A stretch of 48,605 nt of DNA from Aquaspirillum serpens DSM 68 (GTDB lineage: Bacteria; Pseudomonadota; Gammaproteobacteria; Burkholderiales; Aquaspirillaceae). The position numbers and the translations under genes are program-made. The stretch spans positions 1 to 48,605 of the forward strand of contig NZ_ATVC01000010.1 in the NCBI RefSeq assembly GCF_000420525.1. Direction: 5' to 3'. Position 1 is the stretch's first letter. Every line of letters starts with the position of its first letter. Positions 10,393 to 12,576 of the stretch are shown piece after piece. The notes beneath the pieces are model-generated. The model did not search any database and was not told the DNA's origin. It worked only from the letters and a program-made list of their open reading frames with translations.

Positions 10393-12312
10393 TTATTGTG
10401 CTGCACGTTTTTGGGCGGTTTCTGCTTTCATGCGCTCAATAAACGCATCTAAAGACATTTGACCTAAATTTTCACCCGAGCGGGAACGAACAGCGACCAA
10501 GTTGTCTGCTTTTTCTTTGTCACCCACGATTAACTGGTATGGCAACTTTTGCAAACTGTGTTCGCGGATTTTATAGTTAATCTTCTCGTTTCTCAAGTCA
10601 AGTTCAACACGCAACCCTGCCTGACGCAGCTTTTGTGCAACGTCACGGGCATAATCGGCCTGTGCTTCCGAGATATTAGCGACCACCATTTGCAATGGTG
10701 CCAACCACATTGGGAAAGCACCAGCATAGTGTTCAATCAAAATCCCAGTGAAACGTTCCAACGAACCAAACAAGGCGCGGTGCAGCATCACCGGACGTTT
10801 TTTCGTATTGTCTTCAGCAACATAGGCAATATCAAAACGTTCTGGCAGGTTCATATCGACCTGTAAAGTGCCACATTGCCAATCGCGACCGATGGCATCA
10901 CGCAATACAAATTCTAGTTTCGGACCATAGAATGCGCCTTCGCCGGGGAAGAGCTGATAAGGCATACCCATGCTTTCTAAAGCGCCGGCTAATGCACCTT
11001 CTAATTTATCCCATACTTCGTCCGAACCGATGCGATTTTCTGGCCGAGTGGACAATTTAATGATGACATTATCAAAACCAAAGTCTTTATAGATGTCGAG
11101 AATCAGCTTCACCACATCGCGACATTCACCTTCCATCTGCTCTTCGGTACAGAAAATATGGGCATCATCTTGTGTGAAGTGACGTACACGCAACAGACCA
11201 TGCAACGCACCAGAAGGCTCGTAGCGATGCACTTTACCAAACTCGGCCATGCGTAATGGTAAATCGCGATAGCTCTTCAAGCCTTGGGCAAACATCGACA
11301 CCGCACCAGGACAGTTCATCGGCTTGAGCGCATAGACCCGCTCATCCTCTGTGGTCGTGGTGTACATGTGGTGGTGATAGTTAAACCAGTGGCCGGAGAT
11401 TTCCCACAGGCTACGATCCATCATATCGGGGGTATTCACCTCGACATAGCCAGCTTCTTCCTGACGATCGCGCATGTAGTTAATCAGGCTATTGAATAAA
11501 CGCCAGCCTTTAGGGTGCCAAAACACCGCGCCAGGGGCTTCATCTTGCATGTGGAACAAGTTGAGCTGTTGGCCTAATTTGCGGTGGTCGCGTTTCTCGG
11601 CCTCTTCAAGCATGTGCAAATAGGCTTCTAAGTCTTCCTTTTTCGCCCATGCAGTGCCGTAGATACGCTGCAACATTTCATTTTTTGCATCACCGCGCCA
11701 GTAGGCACCCGCCACTTTCATCAGCTTGAACACTTTCAAGCGACCAGTAGAAGGTACGTGCGGGCCACGACATAAATCAGTGAACAGCCCTTCGGTGTAC
11801 AACTTAATTTTTTCGCCTTCAGGAATTGCCGCAATCAGCTCACATTTGTAGTGTTCGCCTTGTTCTTTGAAGAAAGCGATCGCCTCATCGCGGCTGACCA
11901 CACGGTGAGAAACAGGAATGTCTTGTTTTGCCAATTCCGCCATTTTCTTTTCGATGGCCTCGAGGTCATCGGGGGTAAATGGGCGGGTATAGGCAAAATC
12001 GTAGTAAAAGCCATTTTCGATCACAGGCCCAATGGTCACTTGTGCTTCAGGAAACAGACTTTTTACGGCAAAAGCTAATAAGTGTGCGGTTGAATGGCGA
12101 ATAACTTCGAGGCCTTCACTGTCTTTATCGGTGACAATGGCAAGGTCGGCATTCTGTTCAATCAAAAACGAGGTATCAACCAATACCCCATCCACACGAC
12201 CAGCAAGGGCAGCACGAGCCAAGCCCGCACCAATTGACGCGGCCACCTCAGCAACCGTTACCGGCTGCGCAAAAGAACGGATCGAACCGTCCGGCAAGCG
12301 AATATCAGGCAT
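10393..12312 (-). CDS. thrS: Threonyl-tRNA synthetase
   Basis: ThrRS charges tRNA-Thr and edits mischarged serine. The 639-aa product has all domains: TGS (about 1-62), the N2 editing domain (about 70-225, with [12 protein letters not shown] and the zinc-like histidine region HYKCEL), the class II core (about 245-540, with [14 protein letters not shown] carrying the zinc cysteine, and [11 protein letters not shown]), and the C-terminal anticodon domain (about 540-639). GGAGAC before the ATG is the ribosome site. The gene is preceded by a leader encoding four consecutive Thr codons and a terminator, so its transcription is probably attenuated in response to tRNA-Thr charging. It continues into infC. 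Confidence 0.98.
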
Positions 12313-12386: not shown

Positions 12387-12409
12387 GTGCGGCCGGAGCC
12401 GCACTTTTT
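12387..12409 (-). terminator. Attenuator terminator upstream of thrS
   Basis: GTGCGGC (12387-12393) and GCCGCAC (12398-12404) form a perfect stem with a 4-base loop. A-runs and T-runs flank it: on the minus strand eight T residues follow. It lies about 75 bases before the thrS ATG and 35 bases after the end of the Thr-rich leader peptide. It may act as a regulated attenuator, or simply end tRNA-Val transcripts. Confidence 0.85.
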
Positions 12410-12419
12410 CGAGAATTGC

Positions 12420-12481
12420 CTCAAATGGCCCAACCATGTCAGTTTATGGGTGGGTAGTGGTAGTTCGCACAGCCATTTGAG
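12420..12481 (-). promoter_or_regulatory. 10-bp inverted repeat enclosing the thrS leader peptide
   Basis: CTCAAATGGC and GCCATTTGAG are perfect complements at 12420-12429 and 12472-12481. In the transcript the first arm holds the leader-peptide start codon, so folding would compete with its translation. Inside, CCCACCC and GGTTGGG can extend the stem with one mismatch. A ribosome on the leader would open this structure, as in amino-acid attenuators. Confidence 0.6.
12444..12476 (-). CDS. thrS leader peptide MAVRTTTTHP
   Basis: On the minus strand ATG GCT GTG CGA is followed by ACT ACC ACT ACC, then CAC CCA TAA, giving a 10-residue peptide with four Thr codons in a row. AGGA lies eight bases before the ATG, an ideal ribosome site. 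The peptide sits between tRNA-Val and thrS and is followed by a strong terminator. Established attenuators of amino-acid operons and of pheST use exactly this logic: ribosomes stall at the cognate codons when charged tRNA is scarce, and the terminator then does not form. The peptide and structures are directly visible. The control mechanism is inferred. Confidence 0.75.
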   Translation of the reverse strand: MAVRTTTTHP

Positions 12482-12499
12482 TTATCCTTTTTGGAATTT

Positions 12500-12576
12500 T
12501 GGTAGGCGCGATTGGAATCGAACCAACGACCTCCACCATGTCAAGGTGGCGCTCTAACCAACTGAGCTACGCGCCT
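12500..12576 (-). tRNA. tRNA-Val (GAC anticodon)
   Basis: The minus strand folds into a full cloverleaf. There is a 7-bp acceptor stem AGGCGCG/CGCGCCT, a D-arm with AGTTGGTTA, an anticodon stem CCACC/GGTGG with loop TTGACAT (anticodon GAC, reading GUC and GUU), and a T-arm with TTCGATT. The discriminator is A and the CCA end is encoded (12500-12502). It lies upstream of thrS and probably shares its transcript. Confidence 0.97.

Follow-up and report, generated by a model that had tools for sequence, protein, structure and literature searches.

Organization of the thrS locus

How is the supply of threonyl-tRNA synthetase adjusted where thrS is preceded by a short reading frame with four consecutive Thr codons and an intrinsic terminator? 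In E. coli, thrS is the textbook case of translational feedback by the gene's own product. The locus considered here is located in a window of 48,605 nucleotides (the whole stretch of DNA that was analyzed, contig NZ_ATVC01000010.1 of Aquaspirillum serpens DSM 68), and a preliminary description had read the arrangement as ribosome-mediated attenuation. The enrichment of Thr codons and the co-varying pairings reported below support this reading at the sequence level. Thus, thrS is very probably controlled by a ribosome-mediated transcription attenuator sensing charged tRNA-Thr (estimated probability of about 0.88), in which, as sequence and comparison show, a Thr-rich leader ORF precedes both an intrinsic terminator and three arms whose pairings exclude one another.

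All features described are on the minus strand. The first gene of the presumed transcript encodes a tRNA-Val (anticodon GAC, 12576-12500; identified by ARAGORN and by the Rfam tRNA model with 71.7 bits), placed directly upstream of the leader with 23 nt between its 3' end and the leader ATG. Many relatives have the same tRNA-Val upstream of thrS, and it is absent near some of the leader-bearing ones. A promoter-like TTGCGT-N17-TATAGT (12622-12594), recognized by eye and below the threshold of the promoter scan, precedes the tRNA gene and has TTGCCA/TTGCGT-N17-TATAGT counterparts in three relatives of the family (L010, L011, and L013). It is probably the start of the predicted tRNA-Val/leader/thrS transcript. 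Since no promoter-like site was found by the minus-strand scan of the interval between the terminator and thrS, and the promoter-like sequence recognized by eye lies before tRNA-Val, we infer that the tRNA, the leader, and thrS are probably transcribed as one unit.

The leader ORF (12476-12444) has ten codons and a stop (ATG GCT GTG CGA ACT ACC ACT ACC CAC CCA TAA), encodes MAVRTTTTHP with the Thr run at 12464-12453, and is predicted to be translated from the Shine-Dalgarno sequence AAGGA (12489-12485), 8 nt before the ATG at 12476. Its assignment relies on the sequence, the homologues, and the enrichment test. The peptide, the ribosome site, and the four Thr codons are located as first described, and the same holds for the 10-bp inverted repeat with the start codon in its first arm, CTCAAATGGC (12481-12472) and GCCATTTGAG (12429-12420), as well as for the strong terminator between the leader ORF and thrS. 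The latter, evident in both sequence and fold, consists of GTGCGGC-TCCG-GCCGCAC with A5/T8 (12409-12379), with 75 nt from the last G/C base to the thrS ATG at 12312. The thrS gene itself (12312-10393; ORF and homology) encodes a threonyl-tRNA synthetase of 639 aa. The 123-nt leader RNA folds with -45.7 kcal/mol (z = -6.4 versus dinucleotide shuffles). As a side observation, CGTC (12378-12375) abuts the T-tract of the terminator, as it does in 19 of the 59 leaders analyzed below, which belong to several families.

Three segments would compete for pairing. Arm 1 (CTCAAATGGC, 12481-12472), which contains the leader start codon, has arm 2 as its partner, as indicated by sequence, fold, and co-variation. 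Arm 2 (GGGCCATTTGAG, 12431-12420), assigned from sequence, co-variation, and folding, may pair either with arm 1 or, through GGGCC, with arm 3. Arm 3 (GGCTC, 12400-12396), within the terminator 5' arm and loop, is the putative antiterminator partner of GGGCC according to the truncated fold with a Thr-stalled ribosome and to the homologous pairings in relatives. In the window, this pairing is aided by TTTGAG (12425-12420) with CTCGAA (12413-12408).

The Thr-rich leader in Betaproteobacteria

The gene thrS was located in 40 relatives, in 80 named loci, and in 156 of the 160 genomes of the order. Upstream DNA was examined for ~170 loci, of which 149 (mostly betaproteobacterial) were kept and 21 set aside as likely non-betaproteobacterial, based on name or weak similarity. 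ATG ORFs 7-25 codons long and carrying three or more Thr within four codons were then counted, using dinucleotide shuffles as background. Such Thr-rich ORFs precede thrS in 38 of the 149 loci versus 0.40 expected, and in none of the 21 set-aside loci. No other amino acid exceeded the background by more than about one count in the same 149 loci (observed versus shuffled, Arg 3 and 3.6, Leu 2 and 2.6, Phe 2 and 1.1).

Within the window's family, each of the six genomes sampled has the leader, with the peptides MAVRTTTTHP, MAFRTTTTGISTLA, MAAQTTPTGSFSLHG, MHARTTNTK.., MHARTSNTR.., and MNARTENTG... The Vogesella leader is MFKRTTTTRISR, Aquitalea has an ORF with WRTTTTR, and Aromatoleum has MFRTTTEAGN; MTPRTTT.. 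is found in Massilia, Cupriavidus, Roseateles, and Comamonas, Acidovorax has MTPRTTT.. or MTPRTTS.., and a further leader outside the window's family is MSFRTTTTGTLNQG. At the later Thr positions all four synonyms are used (ACC 50, ACG 22, ACT 21, ACA 12), which points to selection on the amino acid. The comparison of relatives, set as a test in the preliminary description, has thus shown that Thr is kept at the amino-acid level across many betaproteobacterial families.

Nearly all leader-bearing relatives have the terminator. Many of the sampled betaproteobacteria have no recognizable leader, and some of these retain a terminator between tRNA-Val and thrS; loci L020, L022, and L033, for instance, contain tRNA-Val, a terminator-like hairpin, and thrS without a leader ORF. 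Three genomes (G037, G082, and G121) each have a second, more divergent thrS copy.

The strongest rival to attenuation is that the hairpin is a plain terminator of tRNA-Val, with constitutive readthrough to thrS and a fortuitous short ORF. The position of tRNA-Val directly upstream of the leader would fit this explanation, as would L020 and L022, where tRNA and terminator precede thrS without a leader. It would not account for the class-wide enrichment of Thr in the ORF, nor for the co-variation of the alternative pairings. Moreover, leader and terminator persist at loci of Roseateles, Acidovorax, and Comamonas for which the upstream DNA fetched contained no tRNA-Val gene, an argument against a hairpin that serves as a tRNA terminator only. 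We regard this explanation as very improbable.

Co-variation of the alternative pairings

For the analysis of pairings, 59 leaders were used, a terminator being required for inclusion. Arm 1 was defined as the stretch from the ribosome site to the Thr codons, arm 2 as the one around and after the leader stop codon, and arm 3 as the terminator 5' arm plus loop. Across the 59 leaders, arm 2 lies at or just after the stop codon (its start is at a median of 3 nt past the first base of that codon) and pairs either with the terminator 5' arm, forming the antiterminator, or with the ribosome-site/start-codon region. In a permutation test that, over all 59 leaders, overcounts relatives, the own 2:3 duplexes reached -14.4 kcal/mol versus -12.7 for swapped ones (z = -5.5, with 0 of 20,000 permutations as good), and the own 1:2 duplexes -22.3 versus -18.6 kcal/mol (z = -8.4). 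For the control, in which arm 2 was paired with the 3' arm of the terminator, the same leaders show no co-variation (z = -0.4). When the test was repeated on 22 representatives less than 72% identical, with the tree otherwise ignored, the 1:2 pairing gave p < 1e-4, mostly from the ribosome-site/start-codon part, and the 2:3 pairing only p = 0.04.

Several arms 2 and 3 have changed and still match, such as CUAGUCG/CGGCUAG in Massilia and allies, GGUUCGCGC/GCGCGGACC in Comamonas-like leaders, UCAAGGU-GCGUUUU/AAAACGC-G-GCCUUGG in Ralstonia, CUGAGUCG/CGACUUAG in L126 and L130, and GAGCC/GGCUC in L006 and L015, with GGGCC/GGCUC in the window. The last pairing had been proposed as a weak antiterminator in the preliminary description. 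The proposal holds in so far as the homologous site in relatives is longer and co-varies, being exclusive with the terminator; in the window by itself, the antiterminator is no better than shuffles (p = 0.2). By comparison of sequences, GGGCC/GGCUC is the window's predicted form of the antiterminator, confirmed only by the relatives. Among these, L047, L092, and L126 have long antiterminators.

Ribosome position and folding

Transcripts ending at the terminator loop were folded for the 22 representatives, with the ribosome footprint masked. The mean number of expected 2:3 pairs was 1.4 without a ribosome, rose to 6.1 when the A site held the first Thr codon, and was 1.8 when it held the stop codon, so that in these constrained folds the pairing is decided by whether the ribosome is at the control codons or at the stop codon. 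The difference between Thr-stalled and free RNA was 4.6 versus 1.7 with shuffled linkers (p = 0.001), and that between the Thr and stop positions 4.3 versus 2.2 (p = 0.02). Taken by itself, 2:3 pairing under the Thr stall was no more extensive than in shuffles. Given that the differences are larger, switching appears to have evolved as much as antiterminator strength. The model thus suggests that the evolved trait is an efficient 1:2 stem removable by a Thr stall, as much as a strong antiterminator.

Folding with and without a ribosome had been put forward as a check for the window as well. The expected direction was obtained, the 2:3 pairs rising from 2.0 in the free RNA to 5.6 when the first Thr codon occupies the A site (2.4 at the stop codon), but the size of the switch is matched by 30-48% of shuffles. 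A ribosome stalled at the first Thr codon gives a minimum-energy structure in which GGGCC/GGCUC encloses UUUGAG/CUCGAA; a ribosome at the stop codon gives the 10-bp start-codon stem. In the model, the start-codon repeat would therefore be the competing 1:2 stem, opened when a ribosome sits on the first Thr codons. At the fourth Thr codon, the ribosome leaves this stem closed, and thus it is the first Thr codons that are expected to count most. Unlike in most relatives, the stop codon in the window is 12 nt before GGGCC, so release would rely here on the 1:2 stem. In the full-length fold the terminator always wins, also when a ribosome is stalled, so a kinetic switch has to be assumed.

Proposed mechanism

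Based on these pairings, the attenuator would operate as follows. When charged tRNA-Thr is plentiful, the ribosome would clear the Thr codons, and arm 1 would take arm 2 after release; in many relatives, the ribosome at the stop codon would itself cover arm 2. With arm 2 occupied, arm 3 would be free for the terminator and transcription would end after the leader. When charged tRNA-Thr is scarce, the ribosome would stall at the first Thr codons and mask arm 1, with its ribosome site and start codon, so that arm 2 could capture arm 3, pre-empting the terminator and allowing readthrough into thrS and beyond. If the leader were untranslated, the default would be formation of both the 1:2 stem and the terminator. 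The response to tRNA-Thr charging is one that we infer. As tRNA-Val precedes the attenuator on the presumed transcript, it would still be made upon termination.

Conservation of the CGA-ACU codon pair

An unexpected feature of the leaders is the near-invariant dicodon CGA-ACU, which encodes Arg and the first Thr (12467-12462 in the window). Of the 59 leaders, 52 have CGA as the Arg codon ahead of the Thr run, and 52 have ACT as the first Thr codon; in the thrS genes at 36 of these loci, the shares are 3.2% for CGA among Arg codons and 8.9% for ACT among Thr codons. The pair is thus near-fixed, whereas the later Thr codons vary freely. A tentative and rather doubtful explanation is that CGA-ACU acts as a built-in pause device, raising the sensitivity of the switch to tRNA-Thr charging. 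When the first Thr codon enters the A site, CGA, presumably poorly decoded, would occupy the P site, the ribosome then being where it would mask arm 1. Placing CGA in a his leader of Salmonella increased de-attenuation (PMC4046918), making a pause role plausible. Alternatively, CGAACU may be kept through pairing with arm 2 (in many Burkholderiales, for instance, CGA-A-CUA with UAGUCG). When the codon part of arm 1 was taken by itself, co-variation with arm 2 gave z = -0.98, and the mean pairing with arm 2 is 0.39. A pairing of CGAAC with the T-loop of tRNA-Val was ruled out, as loci with no upstream tRNA-Val found keep CGAACU. The combination of variable arms with a fixed CGA-ACU offers a natural experiment on the correct placement of the ribosome stall.

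Relation to known regulatory systems

The enterobacterial thrL governs thrABC, and its peptide has Ile codons too. The corresponding Rfam family (RF00506, Thr_leader) shares with the element described here a Thr-rich leader peptide and a terminator, and scores 17.9 bits on the window versus a gathering score of 55. The Rfam scan of the window, the leader, and eleven relatives gave tRNA alone at the gathering threshold and, below it, weak matches to Thr_leader and ncS025. In kind, the proposed mechanism is the already known ribosome-mediated attenuation of the trp/his/pheST type. As in pheM-pheST of E. coli, a leader peptide enriched in the amino acid of the synthetase is combined with competing hairpins and an intrinsic terminator ahead of a synthetase operon (PMC1262725); the differences are the Thr codons before thrS, the presumed co-transcription with tRNA-Val, and the use of the start-codon/ribosome-site region as arm 1.

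Among synthetase genes, leader peptides have been described or predicted for pheST, trpS, and leuS (PMC1262725), for hisS paralogues of bacilli (PMC2965389), and for alaS, leuS, trpS, and thrS of Streptomyces lividans (PMC8079986). The last one, thrL (MKRVRPFLETTPGFVPAR), likewise lies before thrS, but it is unrelated in sequence to the leader in the window, has two Thr and, according to the authors, a leaderless start and no U-rich terminator (PMC8079986). In a survey of B. cenocepacia, two tRNA synthetases with short 5' UTRs were reported, BCAL3373 and BCAL3436 (PMC5688073). For Betaproteobacteria, we found no report of thrS attenuation in the open-access literature; the survey of Lopatovskaya et al. 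2010, by its title on aminoacyl-tRNA operons, may list one.

In Firmicutes, T-box leaders of thrS also turn the gene on by antitermination in response to uncharged tRNA-Thr, but through direct tRNA binding and without a leader peptide; in the window, no T-box was matched in Rfam, either at gathering or at E <= 1. The E. coli operator acts on the same gene with feedback on the supply of threonyl-tRNA synthetase, and differs in that it relies on protein binding and translational repression instead of transcription attenuation. That an operator of this kind controls thrS here as well, with the synthetase bound to a tRNA-like element in the 5' UTR blocking translation and the leader being minor, is very unlikely. 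The mechanism is established for E. coli (and named in PMC2965389), and a 5' UTR of 66 nt follows the T-tract, with a small GCGCAC-UGG-GUGCGC hairpin seen by eye near the thrS ribosome site; yet, these 66 nt have neither an anticodon-like CGU loop by eye nor an Rfam match, and an operator would leave the Thr codons and the terminator unexplained. Equally improbable is that translation of the leader governs the stability of the leader RNA, or a trans-acting small RNA, instead of termination: a terminated leader RNA of ~120 nt would be produced continuously and many 5' UTRs of B. cenocepacia yield short transcripts (PMC5688073), but the cis pairing of antiterminator and terminator is conserved and its position before thrS is constant.

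With attenuation as the preferred reading, the class that is sister to that of E. coli appears to use a leader peptide for the control of the same gene. With operator, T-box, and the proposed attenuator taken together, the same task would be solved in three or more ways on a single gene. The element has a simple build, is widely conserved, lends itself to reporter fusion, and suggests names for many unannotated ORFs of 9-20 codons and leader RNAs in Burkholderiales and Neisseriales.

Genes downstream of thrS

The genes downstream of thrS were read as infC, rplT, and pheS. In the rplT-pheS gap, GGGAGGC-TTT-GCCTCCC forms a strong hairpin that, with the T-run behind it, resembles a terminator (~9097-9074, minus strand). 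A Phe-rich leader ORF was sought before pheS in the window and none was seen, unlike in the case of E. coli pheM. For infC, an apparent AUC start follows GGAGGAATTGCC (~10370, minus strand) and the ORF list has a later TTG start; a non-canonical start codon is typical of IF3 genes.
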